Part shown: positions 809 to 9,409 of the stretch, piece by piece
Layout of the letters: each line of letters starts with the position of its first letter
How positions within the stretch are numbered: the stretch's first letter is position 1
DNA from: Nitrospinae bacterium RIFCSPLOWO2_12_FULL_45_22
GTDB lineage: Bacteria > 2-12-FULL-45-22
Direction: 5' to 3'
DNA length: 9,409 nt
Assembly: GCA_001803565.1 (NCBI GenBank)
Contig: MHDQ01000015.1
Span: 1 to 9,409 of the forward strand
The notes under the pieces: model-generated
Database searches by the model: none
Seen by the model: only the letters and a program-made list of their open reading frames with translations
Told to the model about the DNA's origin: nothing
Program-made: the position numbers and the translations under genes

Positions 809-1496
809 AGGCCATTAATTCCCTCAGATATTCTAATTCTATCCCCTGGCAATCCAGCTCAAAGAGTTGACTAAATACCTGGATCAAGGTCTGACTGATT
901 CGTCCTGGTATCTCTCGCTGCGTAAGCTGGCTCATTGAAGTTATCTGCTCACCATTTAAACCACAGGGGTTGATCCAGCGGAAATAATTTAGATCAATGG
1001 TAATATTCAGGGCAAAGCCATGAAAGGAGACCCATCTCTTTATTCCAACACCAATAGAGGCAATCTTTTTCCCTTCTGCCCATACCCCGGTTAAGCCTGG
1101 GACTTGATAAGCTATTATACCCCATTCTCTTAGCGTATCTATCAATAGCCTTTCTAGGTGCCGCAAATAGTAAAAGACATCCTGACCATGATCCTTCAAA
1201 TTGAGGATAGGATAGCCAACCAACTGACCAGGCCCATGAAAAGTTATGTCGCCGCCCCGATTGATCCGGAATAGCCTTATCCCTTTCTGCTCTAATTCCT
1301 CTTCCGATACTAATAGGTTTTCTTTATAACCCAGTCGGCCAGTAGTATAGGTAGGGGGGTGCTCCAGGAGCAACAGTACGTCAGGGATCAACCCTTTTAT
1401 CCTGGCCTCTACTATCTCCTCCTGGAGCCCTAAAGCGGTGGCATAATCCACCATTCCCAATTCTAATACTAAACAGGGTAGAACCCTACTCCTCAT
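768..1496 (-). CDS. lipB: Octanoyl-[acyl carrier protein]:protein octanoyltransferase LipB
   Basis: Transfers octanoate from acyl carrier protein to the lipoyl domains of target enzymes (glycine cleavage H protein, 2-oxoacid dehydrogenase E2), giving LipA its substrate. The 242-residue protein is of normal length. It carries the LipB signature RGGDITFHGPGQ (80-91), the catalytic lysine in G-K-K-I-A-S-I-G (Lys144) and the catalytic cysteine Cys178 in INPCG. The early LELGMVDYATA segment aligns well with bacterial LipB N-termini. The ATG at 1496 overlaps the 3' end of the upstream ferredoxin gene by 11 bp and has no clear ribosome site, so translation may be coupled to the ferredoxin. Met15 (1454) is a less likely alternative because it would cut into the conserved start. 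The 3' end overlaps lipA by 41 bp. Confidence 0.96.
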   Translation of the reverse strand: MRSRVLPCLVLELGMVDYATALGLQEEIVEARIKGLIPDVLLLLEHPPTYTTGRLGYKENLLVSEEELEQKGIRLFRINRGGDITFHGPGQLVGYPILNLKDHGQDVFYYLRHLERLLIDTLREWGIIAYQVPGLTGVWAEGKKIASIGVGIKRWVSFHGFALNITIDLNYFRWINPCGLNGEQITSMSQLTQREIPGRISQTLIQVFSQLFELDCQGIELEYLRELMAYGWQARVAAGQAT

Positions 1497-1659
1497 ATAT
1501 AGCTTCTACTGGACAGGTATTAATACATTCCTTGGCCTGCTTACAGAGATTCTGATCAATAACTGCTTTATCCTCCTGCATAGAGATTGCCCCATGAGGA
1601 CAAACCTCAACACATGTCTGACATCCTATACAGGTATCAGGGTCCACTACTACTGGCAT
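1486..1659 (-). CDS. Small bacterial-type ferredoxin (57 aa) with incomplete second cluster motif
   Basis: This short gene encodes a two-cluster ferredoxin starting MPVVVDPDTCIGCQTC. Motif I is complete: C10-x2-C13-x2-C16-x3-C20-P. Motif II has C39, C45 and C49-P, but the position of the expected second cysteine is Ala42 (C-K-Q-A-K-E-C). In proteins of this fold the cluster that lacks this ligand is often [3Fe-4S] or labile, so this is likely a 7Fe-type or degenerate ferredoxin rather than a plain 2[4Fe-4S] one. A strong ribosome site (AAAGGAGGGAATAA before ATG) supports the start. The gene is first in a ferredoxin-lipB-lipA unit, with its stop inside the lipB start region. LipA needs a reductant for radical-SAM chemistry and must rebuild its auxiliary cluster, so a role in supplying LipA is a reasonable inference but unproven. 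Confidence 0.93.
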   Translation of the reverse strand: MPVVVDPDTCIGCQTCVEVCPHGAISMQEDKAVIDQNLCKQAKECINTCPVEAIYEE

Positions 1660-1737
1660 TTATTCCCTCCTTTCTAAATTAATCCAGAAACTTCTTCGAT
1701 GAGTTAAGTTAAACCCTTCGTAAACAATTGATGGCAT

Positions 1738-1766
1738 AAAATATCATATAGAAAGGCTTATGTAAA
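1738..1766 (-). promoter_or_regulatory. Putative sigma-70 promoter of ferredoxin-lipB-lipA
   Basis: Read on the minus strand, a -35 box TTTACA (1761-1766) is followed after exactly 17 bases by TATTTT (1738-1743), leaving an untranslated leader of about 70 bases before the ferredoxin ATG. The -35 matches consensus at five of six positions and the -10 at four of six. It lies between the hairpin behind hsp20 and the ferredoxin, where a new promoter is expected. No riboswitch-like structure was recognised in the leader. Confidence 0.5.
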
Positions 1767-1827
1767 GGGGTTACTGGGAACCGGCTATTTTTAGATAGAC
1801 TCATCCAGAGAAAACATTAGACAGAAC

Positions 1828-1869
1828 AATGCCCAGGGAAGGGAGGAAGGACTCCCTCCCCTGGGCATT
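1828..1869 (-). terminator. Terminator-like hairpin behind hsp20
   Basis: A strong inverted repeat: an 11-bp arm AATGCCCAGGG pairs with CCCTGGGCATT, extended after one mismatch by a further 6 bp around a loop of about 7 bases. It starts 9 bp beyond the hsp20 stop codon. In the direction of hsp20 transcription it is followed by TTGTTCTGTCT, which is T-rich but not a clean T run, so this is a plausible but not textbook intrinsic terminator. Confidence 0.65.
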
Positions 1870-1877
1870 AACAGGTC

Positions 1878-2333
1878 TTATTCCATAACTTCTACCTTTA
1901 TAGCCTTGCGCTTGGCCTGTTCCTTCTTGGGCACTTGAATCTCTAGCACCCCTTGGTAATACCGGGCCTTGAGACCTTCCGAATTAGCGCTTGCAGGGAG
2001 GTGGAGGATACGATGGAATTTCCCATAAAACCTCTCCCGGCTGTAATAGCCATTATTAACTCTAATATCTCCCTCTCCTCTCTCACCCTTTATGCTCAAG
2101 AGATGCCCATCAAAAGTTACCTCGATATCCTTCTCCTCTAAACCGGGCAGGTCTAACTTAACCAGCACATATTCATCGTTCTCCCAAACATCTGCTGATG
2201 GGTGCCAATACTCGTCGGCACTAAACTGCCTTTCCGGCCTGAAAAAGGGATCAGAAAAATCAAAAAACCGTTCAAATTCTGAAAAGGGACTAACGAGTCC
2301 CGTCCGCCGGGGTTCCCATTTAATGATACTCAT
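1878..2333 (-). CDS. Small heat-shock protein, Hsp20/alpha-crystallin family
   Basis: ATP-independent holdase chaperone that forms oligomers and binds unfolding proteins in the cytoplasm. The N-terminal arm is rich in Phe and Pro (SPFSEFERFFDFSDPFF). The alpha-crystallin domain runs roughly from HPSADVWE to EIQVPKK and contains the family pattern of A-x-x-x-x-G-V-L (ARYYQGVLEIQVPK). A short tail carries an I-K-V motif, the usual I-x-I/V oligomer contact. An ATG two codons further upstream (2339) is open, but it lies only about 2 bases from the AGGAGG site. The ATG at 2333 has a spacing of 8 and gives the common MSIIKWEP-type N-terminus, so I prefer it (151 aa). The gene has its own promoter and terminator and appears to be monocistronic. 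Confidence 0.95.
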   Translation of the reverse strand: MSIIKWEPRRTGLVSPFSEFERFFDFSDPFFRPERQFSADEYWHPSADVWENDEYVLVKLDLPGLEEKDIEVTFDGHLLSIKGERGEGDIRVNNGYYSRERFYGKFHRILHLPASANSEGLKARYYQGVLEIQVPKKEQAKRKAIKVEVME

Positions 2334-2383
2334 TCTCATTTCCTCCTTCTTTGTCTAACATGAATAAAACAGAGATTAACCAA

Positions 2384-2408
2384 ATTATTGAGATAAAATC
2401 TCATTAAT
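2384..2408 (-). promoter_or_regulatory. Palindrome in the hsp20 leader, possible operator
   Basis: An 11-bp inverted repeat with one mismatch around a 3-base centre (ATTATTGAGAT, AAA, ATCTCATTAAT). It lies just downstream of the -10 box, covering about +6 to +30 of the predicted transcript. This position suits a repressor operator or a 5' stem-loop. It is not the CIRCE element, whose TTAGCACTC arms are absent. It does not cover the ribosome site, so it is not an obvious RNA thermometer. Confidence 0.4.
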
Positions 2409-2420
2409 CTTTTGATCTGT

Positions 2421-2449
2421 TATATAATAGCCTCCCACATAATTGTCAA
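2421..2449 (-). promoter_or_regulatory. Sigma-70 promoter of hsp20
   Basis: On the minus strand a perfect -35 TTGACA (2444-2449) is followed after 17 bases by TATATA (2421-2426), about 80 bases ahead of the hsp20 start. This is the best promoter match in the window. It shows that hsp20 can be transcribed independently of the upstream glycyl-radical operon. Confidence 0.7.
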
Positions 2450-2470
2450 GCGCAAACCTAAATTTCTAAA

Positions 2471-2638
2471 TTTTGGTTAAACTGTTCAGTTATAGCCACA
2501 AAAAGGCGCAAAAGGCATCATTATCAGAATTCAGAAGTCAGCATGAAAAAACAACTAGCACCCAACTTCTATTCTGGATTCTGAATTCTGACTTATAAAT
2601 GGTATACCTTTTCGTGGTTGAATAGCTACTTTTGGTTA
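2471..2638. repeat. Imperfect inverted repeat flanked by a 9-bp direct repeat
   Basis: Within the 395-bp gene-free stretch 2340-2734, TTTTGGTTA occurs at 2471-2479 and again in the same orientation at 2630-2638. Between the copies lie two imperfect inverted arms, about 2487-2536 and 2579-2629. They share TCAGAATTCAGAA exactly (2524-2536 against the complement of 2579-2591) and a second block of the type CCAC[AG]AAAAGG nearer the outer ends. No coding potential was found. The layout resembles a small decayed, non-autonomous mobile element with a target duplication, or a member of a dispersed intergenic palindrome family. Neither is proven. Confidence 0.4.
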
Positions 2639-2690
2639 TTACTGGAGGTCTGATGCAACGGGGGTAGTTTTGAAGTTTAGTAGGCAAGCA

Positions 2691-2724
2691 GGGGGCAGGG
2701 TTCATGTCTTTAAACCCTGTCCCC
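2691..2724 (-). terminator. Terminator-like hairpin behind the glycyl radical enzyme gene
   Basis: GGGGGCAGGGTT (2691-2702) pairs with AACCCTGTCCCC (2713-2724) as a 12-bp stem with one G-T pair and a 10-base loop. It begins 10 bp past the stop codon at 2735. It is followed on the transcribed strand by TGCTTGCCTACT rather than a T run, so a factor-dependent or weak terminator, or merely a stabilising 3' hairpin, is possible. Confidence 0.5.
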
Positions 2725-2734
2725 GAAGGTTCCT

Positions 2735-5155
2735 TTAGCAGAATCTCTGCTCGGTCCGCTCGATAATTTGGTCCTGCACCCCTTTAGGCAGATCAACAAA
2801 ATATGCGCTGTAGCCCGCTACCCGTACTACTAAGTCGGCATACCGCTCCGGGTTTTTTTTGGCCTCCAGCAGGGTAGCACGGTCTATGACATTGAATTGG
2901 ATATGGTGGTGTCCCAGATCCGCCCAGGTTCTTAGATAAGTAGCAAATAGCTCTTTGTTCTCTCCTTCCAGGTATTGGGGCAAGAATTTCTGGTTCAGGA
3001 GGTGATTGTGACTCCTCAAGGGATCAACCTTCGAAGTAGACTTTAGAACCGCGGTAGGGCCCTTCTTGTCCCGGCCAATTACAGGCGACAAAGTACCATC
3101 GTTAAACATATCGTGGTCTTTCCGGCCATCAGGTGTCGCCCCAGTCAGGCCACTATAGGCATAGTAGGCCGCACCACCGCTACCATCTTCCAGGAAGTGA
3201 TAGCCATAGAGATTCTTAAAGCGCTGGATCGCTTTAGCGGTTCTTTCCTGTACCTCCCGGGCTATTAGGTCCACATAGTCGTCATCATTACCGAATTTAG
3301 GGGCCTTATTGAGGAAGATTTGGCGTAAGTCCTCTCTCCCTTCCCAATTGCTCTTAAGGGCCTCTAGAAGCTCGGCCATAGTTACCTGTTTCTCTTCGAA
3401 GACCAGTTTTTTCATAGCAGCCAGAGAATCAGCCACAGTAATCTGGCCTATAGGCTGGACAATAGTCTTGGCAAAATAGCGCCATTTACGGCAATCCTGA
3501 CCCTTCTCTATACAACCATCCAGCAGGGCCGAGAGGAGGGGCCTGGGCAGGTGTTCTTCATACAAGGCATCGGCAATATTATATATAACCGCCAGTTTTC
3601 CCATGAAGAAGCGTACCTGGGCCAGATATGCCTCTAGCACATCTTCTATAGAAGAGAAACCGAGAGGGTCCGGGGTAGCAGGGCCGAGTTGCTCACCCGT
3701 AAACTTATCAATACCCTCATTTAGAGCCAGCTCTAAACACTTGGGCAGGACAAATATCCCCCCTACGGCCCGATAGGTAATGTTCTTTCCCGGTATGGTC
3801 CAGCGCATACATACCTCGATAGCATAATCCCGGACATCCTCAATGGGCAAACCTAGAGCGAGAAACATAGGTATCATATAGGCATCGTTATAGAAAGCCG
3901 GATAGCCCACACCAGTCCGGAGCAAATCTATTGCGCTGTATACCAGTTCTTTGGGTATCTTGCTATGGTACCGCATAGCCACCATAGGCACCTGCAAGCG
4001 GATATTTTTGGAGGCATCCAGGGCAATATAGGTCATCTCATTGGTAGCATCATCCCCTTCCCGGGTGACCCCGCCCAGGGTAATGGTTTGGGCCGCCGGT
4101 ATACCGCCAGCCTGGAAGGAGCCGGCTAAAGGTGGCCTGAGCTGACCCGACTCATTCATCTTGAGCCATAAGAATTCTACCAGCTCCTGGGCCTCTTCGC
4201 GGGTGATCCGGCCAGCATCCTGATCCATTTTATAAAAGGGATACATAATCTGGTCAAATCTTGCGCCTAAGCCATTATTCTGCAGTTCGATCTCGCGTGT
4301 TATCGAGGTAATGAACCAGAAGAATTGCAGGGCTTCATATAAGCCCCGGGGAGGGTTCTCTGGTACCCAGTCACATACATCCGCCACCCTTTGCAGCTCT
4401 TGTTTTCGCTCAAAGCTGATCTCCGTTTGGGCCAGTTCCCGGGCCTTTTGGGCATAGCGGTTGGCAAAGTTGGTGGCGGCCCTAAGGGAAATCAGGCAAG
4501 CCTCGAGAAAGTTCTTTTGTTCCAGGTATTCGCGGGCTGAGGTACCATTTACATTCAAGGTCTTCAAGCGATTTTCCGCCTCTTTTATTACCCCTTTCAG
4601 GCCGACCTGGAAGAGTTTCTCAAAATTGGCAGCGCCAGAATCAGCACCATGGAGCCACATAAAATGTCCTTTATATGACCAGTAAGGTTTTACATCCTCG
4701 GGCAAGAGATTATATTCCATCCCCTGGACGGATTTACCTTGCCAGTATTTATGTATCTGATGCAGTTCTTTCCTCTCTTCCTCGTTCAGCAGCTCCTTAT
4801 ATTCTTTATCAATAGCCTTATCCAGCCAGCGCCAGTAGAGCTCCGGATAGGTAGTCAGCGAGTCGGGTGTACTGGCAAAGTTGCCTACTATACGCTCTTC
4901 ATCGCCTATATAGATAGTCATATTCTCCAGGATACTGGCTAGGGCCTTTGCCCGCCGTAAGACCATAGGTTCCCCTTCAGTCTCTTTATAGACCTGGGTT
5001 ACCAGGCGGGCCCGTTCCAGGCAGATCTTTACCCCGGGCCGATATGGTGACCGGCCGGCTTCTTTCTCATAACCCCGGCCCAATGCCCGGAAGCTCTTTA
5101 CCTGATAATGCATCTTGTCCCTGAGTTTTTCTACTACCGTACTCACTATCCCCAC
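2735..5155 (-). CDS. Glycyl radical enzyme, pyruvate formate-lyase-like, unknown substrate
   Basis: An 806-residue GRE. The C-terminal radical motif is R778-V-A-G781-Y-S-A-Y-F, and the active-site thiyl cysteine is Cys449 in D-Y-A-I-E-V-C-M-R-W. The N-terminal PFL domain is clear (ERARLVTQVYKETEGEPM, about 47-64), as are the later GRE blocks FGNDDDYVD (621-629) and GPTAVLKSTSKV (699-710). Glycerol/diol dehydratases, choline lyase and hydroxyphenylacetate decarboxylase have C-V-E at the active site. Here Arg replaces the Glu, and PFL's double cysteine is also absent, so the gene is none of these. The C-M...P-G pattern recalls fumarate-adding enzymes (benzyl- and alkylsuccinate synthases), but at 806 residues it is shorter than BssA as I remember it, and small Bss subunits are not seen. 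The start is uncertain: GTG 5155, GTG 5146 and ATG 5113 are all possible. It follows the second BcrB-like gene by 32 bp. No activase gene is adjacent. Confidence 0.92.
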   Translation of the reverse strand: MGIVSTVVEKLRDKMHYQVKSFRALGRGYEKEAGRSPYRPGVKICLERARLVTQVYKETEGEPMVLRRAKALASILENMTIYIGDEERIVGNFASTPDSLTTYPELYWRWLDKAIDKEYKELLNEEERKELHQIHKYWQGKSVQGMEYNLLPEDVKPYWSYKGHFMWLHGADSGAANFEKLFQVGLKGVIKEAENRLKTLNVNGTSAREYLEQKNFLEACLISLRAATNFANRYAQKARELAQTEISFERKQELQRVADVCDWVPENPPRGLYEALQFFWFITSITREIELQNNGLGARFDQIMYPFYKMDQDAGRITREEAQELVEFLWLKMNESGQLRPPLAGSFQAGGIPAAQTITLGGVTREGDDATNEMTYIALDASKNIRLQVPMVAMRYHSKIPKELVYSAIDLLRTGVGYPAFYNDAYMIPMFLALGLPIEDVRDYAIEVCMRWTIPGKNITYRAVGGIFVLPKCLELALNEGIDKFTGEQLGPATPDPLGFSSIEDVLEAYLAQVRFFMGKLAVIYNIADALYEEHLPRPLLSALLDGCIEKGQDCRKWRYFAKTIVQPIGQITVADSLAAMKKLVFEEKQVTMAELLEALKSNWEGREDLRQIFLNKAPKFGNDDDYVDLIAREVQERTAKAIQRFKNLYGYHFLEDGSGGAAYYAYSGLTGATPDGRKDHDMFNDGTLSPVIGRDKKGPTAVLKSTSKVDPLRSHNHLLNQKFLPQYLEGENKELFATYLRTWADLGHHHIQFNVIDRATLLEAKKNPERYADLVVRVAGYSAYFVDLPKGVQDQIIERTEQRFC

Positions 5156-5187
5156 CCCCTTTAATCTTCTTAAGATTTCCTGCTACC

Positions 5188-6465
5188 TTATCTTTTGCGC
5201 TTGCGGCGTGCTTCTATCATCTCGAATAGGGCCTGGAGCCTAATATCTATCTGGGCCTCAGAGAAGAATTTCGGGTCAATCATATCCGCTTCTATCACTA
5301 TCCCGGGGATACCGTACTTGCGCTCGATATCATCAATTATATCCAGCTCGCCCAGGTTCCAGACCCGGCAGGTACGGGAGGCATACATGATCAGGCCATC
5401 CAGAGAGTATTGTTCGATCCATTCTGCTAAGGAATGCTGGAAGAACTCCGGGGAGCTGCCCGTAGCCATCCGATAAGAGTACCACTGTTCGATCAGGGTA
5501 TCTACCGGCCTTTCCGGGTCAATATGTTCCGGGTGAGGGAAGAATTCCCAGGGGTATCTTCCGACAATGGGATTAGCGCCGAAAGAGACCAGCTTGCGCA
5601 TAATAGTACCCAGGAAGGTCCAGGGTATCCAACCATCCCAGTATACCCGGAAGCGCTCCTCGGGTGCGATAGCCGAGATCCCCTGCCCTGCCCTCTGTTT
5701 TAATTCATCTAGCAATTGCTGATAATAGTCAATAGACCTCTGTTGACCCATCAGATAAAAAACCGGGGCAATGCTAACCGCATAATCCCATAGCGTCCAC
5801 GGTGAGGGGATCCTTTCAAAGAATTTCCAGCATTCATTCCGGATCATAGCGGCCTTTTTGAGCACGGCCAGGATCTCACTCAAGCGGTCATAATTAAACT
5901 TACGCCCGCAGAACTCTTCTAGCTGCGGGATGACTACTTCGTAGCACTGCCGTTTAGCATAGTTTTCCAGGGGCTTAAGGTCTTCTTCCTTTTGAGGTGG
6001 GGGCAGGTCCAAGGTGATAGCCGGCACTTTTAAACGCCGGAAGAGAGAATCACCGATCTGGGAATGTTCCGGACAAAGGCGTCCACAAAGAATCAAGTCC
6101 GGTATGGGCTGCAATACATCCTCTTTTATAGGGATATTCTTCTCTATGGCATCGATCATACCTAGATGGAGGCGATGATAGGAACAAGTATCAATAATTT
6201 GCCCGCCGGCTTCGGCTGCCTCAAGGATGGGTGGTACGCCTTTACGGCCACCGCAATAAGCTGCATAGCCAGCATAGAAATGGCAGGTTATCCCCATAGC
6301 ATAGGCAAACGGGAATAGGGGACCTATGCTCCAGGCAATCTTTTTTCCTTGGGCCTTGGCTACCCGGATGCTTGCCCAATGTTCATCTACCCACGGGCCC
6401 ATAAGTTTGGTGGTCTCTAACCGATTCAATTTAAACTTTCGTTCTTCAGATTTTTTCTCTTCCAT
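5188..6465 (-). CDS. 2-hydroxyacyl-CoA dehydratase / benzoyl-CoA reductase subunit B-like, copy 2
   Basis: A 425-residue member of the HgdB/BcrB family, the iron-sulfur component that receives one electron at very low potential from the ATP-driven activator. Three cysteines stand at the expected [4Fe-4S] ligand positions: Cys94 in DTCSYHR, Cys131 in GRLCPEH and Cys366 in SRTCRVWN. Length and layout match BcrB/BadE-type subunits. By ungapped reading it is about 75% identical to the copy at 7801-9081, with the first ten residues (MEEKKSEERK) the same, so the two arose by duplication. The most diverged segments are around 101-170 and 326-352. A strong GAGGAGG ribosome site precedes the ATG. It is followed directly by the glycyl radical enzyme gene. 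Whether it reduces an aromatic ring, dehydrates a hydroxyacyl-CoA or does something else cannot be told from sequence. Confidence 0.9.
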   Translation of the reverse strand: MEEKKSEERKFKLNRLETTKLMGPWVDEHWASIRVAKAQGKKIAWSIGPLFPFAYAMGITCHFYAGYAAYCGGRKGVPPILEAAEAGGQIIDTCSYHRLHLGMIDAIEKNIPIKEDVLQPIPDLILCGRLCPEHSQIGDSLFRRLKVPAITLDLPPPQKEEDLKPLENYAKRQCYEVVIPQLEEFCGRKFNYDRLSEILAVLKKAAMIRNECWKFFERIPSPWTLWDYAVSIAPVFYLMGQQRSIDYYQQLLDELKQRAGQGISAIAPEERFRVYWDGWIPWTFLGTIMRKLVSFGANPIVGRYPWEFFPHPEHIDPERPVDTLIEQWYSYRMATGSSPEFFQHSLAEWIEQYSLDGLIMYASRTCRVWNLGELDIIDDIERKYGIPGIVIEADMIDPKFFSEAQIDIRLQALFEMIEARRKRKR

Positions 6466-6510
6466 CGGAGCTCCCTCCTCTTATTCGCTTCGAAAATAGA
6501 AATAAAGAGA

Positions 6511-6942
6511 TCATAACAAATTAAATCGTTTTAGGGCCTCAGCTAATCTACTATCCTGCCGGGAAAGCTCCTTCAAGGCATCCAATAGCCTTCTTAACAT
6601 ACCTTCCTTTTCCATAAACTCAATGGCCTCTCTTCTGGCTTCCCTGATTATGGTCCTTCTGTCCCAATAGGCAAATCCTATAACTGTTACTACTAAGGAA
6701 GTAAATATCCCGGACAAGATATAAAGGAAATGGGTCATCTGGTCGAACCTCTTGTTCATATCTTGACGTAGTTCTGAAATTCTTGTATCCACCTGCTCAA
6801 ATCTCTTGTCTATCTCTCCCACTTTTACCCTTAGTTCAATAAGAAGTTCTCGGTCTTTCTGGGTGAAACCGTCTTCCGCAAATGTGGAGGCACCTGAGAG
6901 GAAAATCAAAAATAATACAGATAGCACCATTAAATGTCTCAT
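6511..6942 (-). CDS. Small signal-peptide, coiled-coil, single-membrane-span protein
   Basis: A 143-residue protein of unknown function. Residues 1-22 look like a signal peptide (MRHLMVLSVLFLIFLSGAS, then TFA before Glu23). Residues 26-70 are charged and heptad-like with repeats of the type KRFEQVDTR/NKRFDQM, a likely coiled coil. Residues 71-92 form a hydrophobic span (FLYILSGIFTSLVVTVIGFAYW) followed by DRR, and the rest is a charged helical tail. The frame is open upstream to 7059, but the ATG at 6942 has a good GGGGAGG site 6-7 bases ahead and gives the signal peptide, while the upstream extension would overlap the ATPase gene and looks non-coding. The protein resembles small membrane proteins with RFEQVDKRFEE-type repeats seen in various thermophiles (from memory). 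Its place inside an enzyme operon is odd. It may be unrelated or may tether the complex to the membrane. Confidence 0.75.
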   Translation of the reverse strand: MRHLMVLSVLFLIFLSGASTFAEDGFTQKDRELLIELRVKVGEIDKRFEQVDTRISELRQDMNKRFDQMTHFLYILSGIFTSLVVTVIGFAYWDRRTIIREARREAIEFMEKEGMLRRLLDALKELSRQDSRLAEALKRFNLL

Positions 6943-7021
6943 AATTTCCTCCCCATCTGAATGACAATCATTGCACCGCAAAGCATGCTGAGGTATAAAG
7001 GGCAGCTCAGCAGGTTTATTT

Positions 7022-7798
7022 CTATTGTTCGGTAGCAATAATAGCAGCACCGAGGGCACCGATGATTTGAGGTTCTGGCGGGATCAAAAGAGTTATACCA
7101 AGTTTTTTCTCCAATGCCCGAACCATTCCCTTACCCTTAGCTACCCCACCGGTCATCACTACCGGTTCTTTCGTGCCTAATTGACCAATCATACCTGTGA
7201 TACGCCGGGCAATAGCTTCATATATCCCGGCCGCTATATCTGCCTTGTCAGAACCCTGGGCCAATAGAGATATTACCTCGGTCTCGGCAAACACGGTACA
7301 CATATTACTTACCTTGGCCTCTGTGTGGGCACGGAAAGATAATTCCCCCATTTCATCGAGGTCAACTTCTAAAGCCCCGGCCATTACCTCCAGGAAGCGT
7401 CCAGTTCCAGCCGCACATTTATCGTTCATAATAAAGTTTACTGGCCGGCCATCTTCATTAACATAGATTACTTTGCTATCCTGACCGCCTATATCAATCA
7501 CCATCCGTACCTGGGGGAAGATGGATTTTGCCCCCCGGCCATGGCAAGTAATTTCTGTAACATGGTTATGAGCAAAACTTACCCGTGCCCGTCCATAGCC
7601 TGTAGAGACAATATAATTAATATCGGCGAGGCCGAGATTAGCAGTTGCTAATACTTCATTAAAAGAGGCTTCGGCCGCCCCTTGATAAGAAGCACCACTC
7701 CTGATTATTTTATAAGCCAGGATATTTCTGTTGCCATTTAATAATACCACTTTGGTACATAAAGAACCTACATCTATGCCCCCTACAATACCCGCCAT
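7022..7798 (-). CDS. ATP-dependent activator of 2-hydroxyacyl-CoA dehydratase / benzoyl-CoA reductase (HgdC/BcrA/BadF-type ATPase)
   Basis: A 258-residue ASKHA-fold ATPase. As a homodimer bridged by one [4Fe-4S] cluster, family members hydrolyse ATP to push an electron into the dehydratase/reductase subunits. Visible motifs are the phosphate loop G-I-D-V-G-S (7-12), ITCHGRGA (83-90), D-I-G-G-Q-D-S-K (102-109), N-D-K-C128-A-A-G-T-G, C167-T-V-F-A-E and TGGVAKG (216-222). Cys128 and Cys167 match the cluster cysteines of HgdC (about 127 and 166). The length fits the compact HgdC/FldI/BcrD type, not the longer BcrA type, and only one such ATPase is present. The start lies 2 bp after the stop of the upstream BcrB-like gene, so the two are surely co-transcribed. 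It is the expected partner of the dehydratase/reductase-like subunits around it. Confidence 0.95.
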   Translation of the reverse strand: MAGIVGGIDVGSLCTKVVLLNGNRNILAYKIIRSGASYQGAAEASFNEVLATANLGLADINYIVSTGYGRARVSFAHNHVTEITCHGRGAKSIFPQVRMVIDIGGQDSKVIYVNEDGRPVNFIMNDKCAAGTGRFLEVMAGALEVDLDEMGELSFRAHTEAKVSNMCTVFAETEVISLLAQGSDKADIAAGIYEAIARRITGMIGQLGTKEPVVMTGGVAKGKGMVRALEKKLGITLLIPPEPQIIGALGAAIIATEQ

Positions 7799-7800
7799 AA

Positions 7801-9081
7801 TTACCTGCGCCTCATCTTCCTCCGGGCTTCTATCATCTCGAATAATGCCTGGAGCCGCATATCTATCTGTGCTTCCGAGAAGAATTTCGGGTCAAGCATA
7901 TCCGCTTCCAGAACTACCCCCGGTATGCCGTGCCTGCGCTCTATCTCATCAATGATGTCTTGCTCTCCCAGGTTCCAGAGCCTACAAGTGCGGGCGGCAT
8001 ACATGATTAAACCATCCAGCGAATATTTATCTACACACTCAGAGATAAACTCCAGGCCAAACTCGGGTGAGCTCCGGGTAGACATCATATGGGTATACCA
8101 TTGTTCGCACAGGGTATCTACTGGCCTTTCTGGGTCAATATATTCCGGGTGAGGAAAGAACTCCCAGGGATATTTACCTACGATGGGATTAGCGCCGAAA
8201 GAGAGGAGCTTCCGGCTGATAGTCCCCAGAAAAGACCAGGGGAGCCACCCATCCCAATAGACCCGGAATTTTTCCTCGGGCGATATAGCAGAGATACCTT
8301 GATCGGCCCGCTGTTGCAGCTCGGCCTTGAGCTTCTCATAATACTCTACCGTGCCGGGCTGCCCCATGAGATAGAATACCGGGGCGATACTGACTCCCCA
8401 GTCCCATAATGTCCAGGGCGAAGGGATCCTCTCAAAGAATTTCCAGCATTCATTCCGTACCAGGGCCGCTTCTTTCAAGGTAGCCAACATCTCACTCAAC
8501 CGGTCATAATTGAACTTACGGCCACAGAATTCTTCTATTTGCGGGATGACTATTTCGTAACATTGGCGTTTGACGTAGTTTTCCAGTATCTTTAAGTCCT
8601 CAGGCTTATGGGGCGGGATCATATCCATCGCAATGACCGGTACCTTTATATGCCGATAGATGGAGTCACTCTGGTGGGAATGTTCCGTACAGAGCCGGGC
8701 AGAGAGGACCAGGTCTGGTTTGGGCAGCATGACCTCTTCCTTGATCGGCAACTGCTTCTCAATAGCGAGAATCACCCCCATATGGAGCCGGTGATAAGAA
8801 CAGGTGTCAACGATTTGACCATCGGCCTCCGCAGCCTCTAACAGGGGAGGCACACCCTTGCGGCCCCCACAATAAGAGGCATAACCTGCGTGGAAATGGC
8901 AAGGCATATCCATGGCATAGGCAAACGGGAACAGGGGGCCCATACTCCAGGCCACTTTCTTACCCTGCTTTTTGGCCTCCCGTAAGCCATCCCAATGGGC
9001 ATCCACTAAAGGTCCTATTGCCTTGGTCGTCTCTAAGCGATTAAGTTTATATTTCCTCTCTTCAGATTTCTTTTCTTCCAT
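7801..9081 (-). CDS. 2-hydroxyacyl-CoA dehydratase / benzoyl-CoA reductase subunit B-like, copy 1
   Basis: A 426-residue HgdB/BcrB-family iron-sulfur subunit with the three expected cluster cysteines: Cys94 (DTCSYHR), Cys131 (ARLCTEH) and Cys366 (ARTCRLWN). Other conserved stretches, identical in the second copy, are FCGRKFNYDRLSE (186-198) and RNECWKFFERIPSPWTLWD (209-227). The ATG has a GGGGAGG site about 9 bases upstream. It sits 20 bp after the stop of a further family member and 2 bp before the activator ATPase, so partial subunit, this gene and the ATPase together look like a minimal two-subunit enzyme plus activator. The basic tail (EARRKMRRR) is a shared oddity of both copies. The substrate is unknown, and BcrB-like and hydroxyacyl-CoA dehydratase roles are both open. 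Confidence 0.92.
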   Translation of the reverse strand: MEEKKSEERKYKLNRLETTKAIGPLVDAHWDGLREAKKQGKKVAWSMGPLFPFAYAMDMPCHFHAGYASYCGGRKGVPPLLEAAEADGQIVDTCSYHRLHMGVILAIEKQLPIKEEVMLPKPDLVLSARLCTEHSHQSDSIYRHIKVPVIAMDMIPPHKPEDLKILENYVKRQCYEIVIPQIEEFCGRKFNYDRLSEMLATLKEAALVRNECWKFFERIPSPWTLWDWGVSIAPVFYLMGQPGTVEYYEKLKAELQQRADQGISAISPEEKFRVYWDGWLPWSFLGTISRKLLSFGANPIVGKYPWEFFPHPEYIDPERPVDTLCEQWYTHMMSTRSSPEFGLEFISECVDKYSLDGLIMYAARTCRLWNLGEQDIIDEIERRHGIPGVVLEADMLDPKFFSEAQIDMRLQALFEMIEARRKMRRR

Positions 9082-9101
9082 GAGACCTATCCTCCCCTTA
9101 A

Positions 9102-9409
9102 CTAGCGCATCTCTTCAATAAAGGCCTGGAGCCGCGTCCTGACCTGCTCTAGCGATACTATTTCGTGCTCTACTTCTACCAATATCTCCGGTATATTATT
9201 TTGGGCCAATTTCCTCTTCACATCAGGATAGTAGCAAAGGTGCGGGGGGCAGAACTTAACCAATAAGGTAATAACCCCCTGACCCTTGGCTTGCTTTACC
9301 CGGTCTATAACATAATCAGACCAATCAGTTACCCAATCCACCTTGGTAGGGCAGGGTGGTATCCGCCGCAGGTAGCGTTTAGCCAGGGCCTCTATCGGGT
9401 TACCATCTA
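9102..9409 (-). CDS. C-terminal part of a further 2-hydroxyacyl-CoA dehydratase / benzoyl-CoA reductase subunit (5' end outside window)
   Basis: The frame is open to the window edge, giving about 102 residues that begin DGNPIEALAKRYLRRIPPCP. The ending has the family layout: D-P-I/N-P-I-E-A-L-A-x-R-Y near the start, then LLVKFCPPHLCYYPDVKRKL, where the first cysteine fits the third cluster ligand, and the closing pattern S-L-E-Q-V-R-T-R-L-Q-A-F-I-E. A GTG at 9341 could be misread as a start, but similarity continues upstream of it, so this is a truncated view of a longer gene. It is not a close copy of the two BcrB-like proteins, so it is probably the other subunit type (BcrC/HgdA-like partner). 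Its stop is 20 bp ahead of the next gene, in the same operon. Confidence 0.85.
   Translation of the reverse strand, partial: DGNPIEALAKRYLRRIPPCPTKVDWVTDWSDYVIDRVKQAKGQGVITLLVKFCPPHLCYYPDVKRKLAQNNIPEILVEVEHEIVSLEQVRTRLQAFIEEMR

Follow-up and report, generated by a model that had tools for sequence, protein, structure and literature searches.

The genes for two radical enzymes, an ATP-dependent reductase of the BCR/HAD family and a glycyl radical enzyme (GRE) that appears to be a sister of the X-succinate synthases (XSS), seem to be joined in one transcription unit, and we tentatively propose, at somewhat less than an even chance, that the unit serves a single catabolic route. The DNA analyzed, hereafter called the window, corresponds to one entire contig (C15; 9,409 bp) from the draft genome G000 (321 contigs, 3.67 Mb, completeness 85%), which belongs to an uncultured anaerobic bacterium. 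Comparison within the phylum was made with one other genome (G001).

Gene content and extent of the probable transcription unit

All of the genes named in a preliminary description of this DNA were found on one (minus) strand at the coordinates given there, and their homology is far beyond chance (PF02901, 8e-182; PF06050, 3e-44; PF01869, 2e-64). The genes listed there are real, but the list overlooked a 143-aa ORF between the activase gene and alpha2, and it did not contain the ferredoxin gene. The order on the minus strand is partial beta, alpha1, activase, 143-aa membrane protein, alpha2, GRE, HSP20, terminator, ferredoxin, LipB, and LipA, with the following features:

9102..9409, minus strand: 3' end of a beta subunit of the HgdB/BcrC/HadC type (PF06050), the remainder of which lies at C86:7536-8442 (376 aa when joined)
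7801..9081, minus strand: alpha1, BCR/HAD family, 426 aa (PF06050; residue alignment)
7022..7798, minus strand: HgdC/BcrA-type ATP-dependent activase, 258 aa (TIGR00241, PF01869)
6511..6942, minus strand: 143-aa protein without a family match; signal peptide, coiled coil, and one membrane span recognized by eye
5188..6465, minus strand: alpha2, 425 aa, 75% identity to alpha1, with the same cluster residues
2735..5146, minus strand: GRE, 803 aa (PF02901 and PF01228); the ORF is open to 5155
1878..2339, minus strand: HSP20 small heat-shock protein (PF00011, 5e-19)
1827..1870, minus strand: strong hairpin of 19 pairs resembling an intrinsic terminator, directly 3' of HSP20
1486..1659, minus strand: ferredoxin, 57 aa, with two 4Fe-4S motifs, between HSP20 and LipB; weak match to the ferredoxin part of TIGR02494

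The gaps were 20 bp between beta and alpha1, 2 bp between alpha1 and the activase gene, and 41 bp between alpha2 and the GRE start, and the 143-aa ORF is flanked by 79 bp on the activase side and 45 bp on the alpha2 side, so that the gaps range from 2 to 79 bp. The GRE most likely starts at the GTG at 5146, which is preceded by a Shine-Dalgarno-like AGGGGGTG. The terminator scan detected no terminator-like site in the alpha2/GRE gap (5147–5187) and only small sites, all within genes, in the stretch from beta to the GRE, and the earlier statement that no terminator separates the reductase genes from the GRE was thus confirmed. HSP20, which follows a 395-bp gap, is possibly the last gene of the unit. 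The ferredoxin gene lies beyond the terminator as a separate unit, and its product is a possible candidate electron donor to the activase.

The upstream end of the window falls inside the beta gene, and the missing piece was identified on contig C86: a beta gene there breaks off before its 3' end, and an 84-bp sequence at the contig end is identical to the end of the window. When 41 whole contigs were compared, just one further pair besides this one had contig ends in common of at least 25 bp. Once joined, the 376-aa beta is colinear over its full length with the beta of G001, with identities of 69% (189/275) before the join and 72% (72/100) after it. No further contig joining the free end of C86 was found. 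Upstream on C86, in the same direction, are the end of a radical SAM protein gene, two OYE-type genes, of which the first lacks its start, and genes for a NifH-like protein and a nitroreductase; nearer to beta are genes for a 670-aa OYE/FadH-type enzyme and an alpha/beta hydrolase, followed by a gap of 352 bp. This gap holds the promoter-like site that scored highest on C86 (C86:7398-7426; TTGACA-17-TATTAT, 11/12), 110 bp before beta, and we therefore placed the start of the unit there. This site, predicted by its match to consensus, and the terminator-like hairpin after HSP20 favor a single transcription unit with the GRE in it. The unit probably consists of beta, alpha1, the activase gene, the gene of the 143-aa membrane protein, alpha2, the GRE, and perhaps HSP20, and shared transcription of the reductase genes and the GRE is likely on the evidence of the sequence signals.

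The NifH-like ATPase of C86 (L154, 1-7183; PF00142, 1.6e-103), encoded between the OYE-type flavoenzymes and the nitroreductase with the radical SAM end upstream, has no NifD or NifK in view, and it would represent a second ATP-driven electron donor adjoining the activase operon.

The reductase and its family in the genome

The activase scored 296 bits against TIGR00241, above the curated cut-off of 125, which places it in the HgdC/BcrA family and upholds its earlier description as an HgdC-type ATP-driven activator. The two genes described earlier as BcrB-like subunits are indeed members of the family; however, alpha1 and alpha2 are near-duplicates (75% identical), and their match to the BcrB profile is weak (110–120 bits; cut-off, 487). 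By their authors' account, “bcrBCD” annotations in Atribacteria had their best matches to hgdABC (PMC6776118), and caution is therefore needed in naming the alpha subunits BcrB.

The diagnostic residues of BzdNO are Cys95/128/380, Glu65, and His131 in alpha, and, in beta, a set of six Cys serving the [8Fe-9S] double-cubane cluster (PMC11971306). In alpha1 and alpha2, the three cluster Cys align with those of HadB and BzdO and the His131 equivalent is retained, and the catalytic Glu is lost, the Glu65 column being Ala in both and in the alpha of G001, so that these proteins differ from Bzd-type alpha subunits. The beta subunit has a HadC-like four-Cys pattern, with Cys at BzdN columns 73, 100, 293, and 327; columns 36 and 263 are P and Y, and the beta of G001 also has four of the six Cys, so that neither is of the Bzd type. 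An assignment of all six double-cubane Cys to the window beta was rejected, because two were off-column relative to BzdN, MbdN, HadC, and DCCP. The scores were 138/140 bits for the alphas against HadB (cut-off, 750) and 149 against HadC (700) for the incomplete beta, both below the HadBC equivalog level; no Bcr/Bzd profile was matched above its cut-off. The reductase therefore qualifies neither as the Bzd type nor, by score, as HadBC.

Like (R)-2-hydroxyisocaproyl-CoA dehydratase (HadBC), the window system has an activase and two HGD-D subunits, the three alpha cluster Cys, and the beta Cys pattern; unlike HadBC, it has Ala in place of the HadB Glu, His at C+3, two alpha genes, and a HadB score of 138–140 bits (cut-off, 750). 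With the class I enzymes BzdNO/MbdNO it shares the activase-driven two-subunit scheme, the window alpha having equivalents of His131 and Trp46 of BzdO, and MbdN is the nearest solved chain to the window beta, whereas the Glu65 equivalent and beta Cys 36 and 263 are missing and there is one activase gene instead of two (BzdPQ). By these sequence comparisons, the reductase is a BCR/HAD-family enzyme that fits no known subtype cleanly.

The lineage of G000 and G001 has undergone a massive expansion of BCR/HAD enzymes, of which we found no published report. PF06050 (HGD-D) had 67 matches at approximately 40 loci in G000 (a 3.67-Mb draft), at least 28 in G001 (1.5 Mb), and at most 20 in 58 other genomes; activase-domain matches numbered only approximately 10. 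Most of the G000 beta subunits on L043, L107, L109-L124, L126, L144, L145, and L162 keep the six Cys of the [8Fe-9S] double-cubane cluster, and in five alpha subunits (L109, L125, L145, L152, and L157) the Glu65 and His131 of BzdO are both retained, suggesting that many of these loci probably encode aryl-CoA-reductase-like or double-cubane reductases.

The glycyl radical enzyme and its relatives

In a profile search, both GRE domains (PF02901 and PF01228) were present. The Cys loop (CMRWTIPGKN) and the C-terminal glycyl loop (RVAGYS) are intact, C446 and G778 are invariant, and the model has the full PFL/GRE fold (pLDDT, 86; TM, 0.87–0.92 to solved GREs), as expected of a glycyl radical enzyme; the sequence has no sign of decay. 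No curated subfamily was above its cut-off, the best being TIGR01774 (622 bits; cut-off, 678). The best PDB match by sequence was glycerol dehydratase (530 bits), and the highest structural Z of the model was to a diol dehydratase. The structural ranking was dropped as a means of subfamily placement, because it did not separate XSS from eliminases.

The CXE motif on the Cys loop marks GRE eliminases (dehydratases and C-N/C-S lyases), and the E470Q variant of IslA has no activity (PMC8473560). In the window GRE and its paralogues on C8 and C176, the motif reads CMR, with Arg replacing the Glu, and the GRE is therefore not a standard eliminase. Absence of CXE is not limited to the XSS side of the family: a HypD equivalog in another genome (L008, G059, 1450-3813) reads CVT. 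This GRE scored 1257 bits, over the trans-4-hydroxyproline dehydratase cut-off, and may be altered or inactive.

The reference-tree placement suggested in the preliminary description put the GRE on the BssA/MasD branch, apart from the eliminases. In the maximum-likelihood tree, the GREs of the window, C8, C176, G025, C318, G001, and G318 joined BssA and MasD with 100/100 support, and this grouping was obtained in two trees (99–100% support). The trees included solved enzymes and GREs from many lineages; the larger one had nine rows on the BssA/MasD side and 24 other GREs; CXE was missing in all nine members of the former. The window group formed a separate subgroup, within or beside the XSS. 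The length from the Cys to the conserved Glu was 26 residues in the window trio, compared with 24–25 in eliminases and decarboxylases and 28–29 in XSS. Residue equivalences were counted from motif anchors. Arg492 of MASS (Arg508 of BSS) holds the distal carboxylate of fumarate (PMC12358834), and counting from the conserved Glu, Arg occupied this position in four of four window-subgroup GREs and in none of 24 others. Whether it is equivalent to the fumarate-holding Arg is uncertain because it lies at C+13, not C+15, and the nearest sister group (the GREs of C318, G001, and G318) is without it. The position of BSS Gln707/MASS Glu690 is the Ser of a DGS motif, and DGS-like motifs occur across the non-XSS part of the branch.

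No BssB homologue was found in G000 (85% complete; searched with PF18512 only), and no small [4Fe-4S] subunit genes were seen beside any of its four GREs. The window GRE resembles BssA and MasD in its branch, missing CXE, lengthened Cys loop, and, tentatively, an Arg near the fumarate-binding position, and differs from them in its separate subgroup, a Cys loop shorter by 2–3 residues, the lack of a Gln707/Glu690 equivalent, and the absence of detected accessory beta/gamma subunits and of a GRE activase in its operon. With the B12-independent glycerol/diol dehydratases (1r8w, 5i2a) it shares the whole fold, ∼35% identity, and the top sequence bit score, but these have CVE where it has CMR and lie on the other half of the tree. 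Taken from the tree and motifs, the GRE would represent a non-eliminase subgroup sister to XSS, and its reaction is most probably C-C chemistry.

The three paralogues in G000 have 62, 57 (C176), and 42% identity to the window GRE and occupy three different neighborhoods; the C8 and C176 copies do not adjoin reductase genes. In a domain-wide sample of 386 genomes, no GRE outside G000 was closer than 47%, and a contig scan with the GRE as query returned distant GREs only (30–33%). On C176 (L042, 444-5243), the paralogue is followed on the same strand by genes for a PIG-L deacetylase and an acyl-CoA dehydrogenase. On G025:C101 (L106, 8725-14445), a same-branch GRE with a CVY loop forms one run with SDR and acyl-CoA dehydrogenase genes, reminiscent of bbs-type beta-oxidation genes; a phylum search centered on G025 turned up no second member. 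Acyl-CoA dehydrogenase genes adjoin the C176 and G025 GREs as well as the G001 reductase. A second locus, C318 (L043, 2-14604), combines an HGD-D pair whose beta has six Cys with ferredoxin-domain proteins, a methylmalonyl-CoA-mutase-like pair, a CMAP-loop GRE, and the only GRE activase over the cut-off in G000.

One route or neighboring genes

We propose the following scheme. The activase would couple ATP hydrolysis to one-at-a-time transfer of low-potential electrons, first to the [4Fe-4S]-type cluster of beta and from there to the [4Fe-4S](OH2) cluster in either alpha1 or alpha2, where a CoA thioester would be reduced or dehydrated via a ketyl-like radical; alpha1 and alpha2 would provide two related substrate specificities. 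In the GRE, the glycyl radical at Gly778 would generate a thiyl radical at Cys446 that abstracts H from the substrate, and a C-C bond would be made or broken without elimination of a leaving group, given the missing CXE Glu. Arg459 would possibly bind an acid to which the substrate is added, in the way that BSS and MASS hold fumarate. The GRE would be activated in trans, because its operon has no GRE activase, and both enzymes would act in one catabolic route. The more specific proposal, that this subunit-free branch performs C-C chemistry and that the co-encoded BCR/HAD enzyme then reduces or dehydrates that same substrate, is rather doubtful, and any named substrate for the pair is unsupported.

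The preliminary description took its reading to be refuted if comparisons showed the GRE beside these genes in a single genome; so far, the pairing has indeed been found in G000 only, although just one comparable genome (G001) exists. In G001, the orthologues of alpha and beta (79 and 69% identical to the window copies) lie in the order acyl-CoA dehydrogenase, beta, alpha, activase, and an unrelated PHP-type gene, with neither an alpha2 nor a GRE found beside them; the single GRE of G001 is of the C318 type and adjoins its own activase. The reductase alpha was found only in these two of the 386 sampled genomes. With approximately 40 HGD-D loci, four GREs, and approximately 3,600 genes, the chance of a GRE directly behind such a locus on the same strand is roughly 40/3,600 per GRE, or ∼4% of such genomes for the four GREs, and adjacency alone is therefore weak evidence. 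It is quite conceivable, if well short of probable, that duplication and rearrangement placed the GRE, together with alpha2, behind an existing beta-alpha-activase operon, so that a transcript is shared and a substrate is not. The simpler operon of G001, the 67 HGD-D genes, which make adjacency not rare, and the different neighborhoods of the three paralogues all favor such a history; against it, the undecayed GRE is closely packed into the unit, has a Shine-Dalgarno sequence of its own and no terminator ahead of it, and a strong terminator closes the unit after HSP20. Weighing the spacing, signals, and intact genes against the G001 order and the ∼4% chance, we consider shared transcription likely and a shared pathway about even.

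Two further explanations concern the GRE reaction. In toluene degraders, Bss acts first and Bcr later. A true X-succinate synthase, coupling fumarate to a hydrocarbon or another compound, with the reductase acting on the aromatic CoA ester formed later in that route, would match the grouping with BssA and MasD, the missing CXE, the Cys loop of 26 rather than 24–25 residues, the Arg at the MASS Arg492 position (PMC12358834), and the acyl-CoA dehydrogenase and SDR genes adjoining related GREs; it is unlikely in view of the missing BssB-type and small [4Fe-4S] subunits, the Ser of the DGS motif at the Gln707/Glu690 position, and the sister group without the Arg. Alternatively, a glycerol/diol-type dehydratase with a different base and a 2-hydroxyacyl-CoA dehydratase might carry out two dehydrations in one fermentation route, as the best PDB sequence match, the highest structural Z, and the HadC-like beta would suggest. 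We regard this as improbable, since the CXE Glu is Arg in the window, C8, and C176 GREs, its replacement inactivated IslA (PMC8473560), and the GRE falls outside all eliminases in the tree.

No published operon with this gene content was found in the literature searched, and none is described in the available portions of papers that treat GREs, hydroxyglutaryl-CoA dehydratase, and benzoyl-CoA reductase together. On sequence grounds, both catalytic parts belong to known superfamilies and to subtypes outside curated assignments. If the proposal of a common route is correct, the unit would encode a ready-made route in which two radical enzymes attack a recalcitrant compound. Should the GRE group prove to be related to XSS but free of their subunits, it would offer simpler C-C bond formation at an unactivated carbon and a new entry to anaerobic degradation; the co-encoded reductase narrows the GRE product to a future CoA thioester, and the operon therefore offers a direct test. 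The host lineage, in view of its 67 BCR/HAD-family matches, is possibly an unrecognized specialist in the reductive attack on aromatic or recalcitrant carbon.
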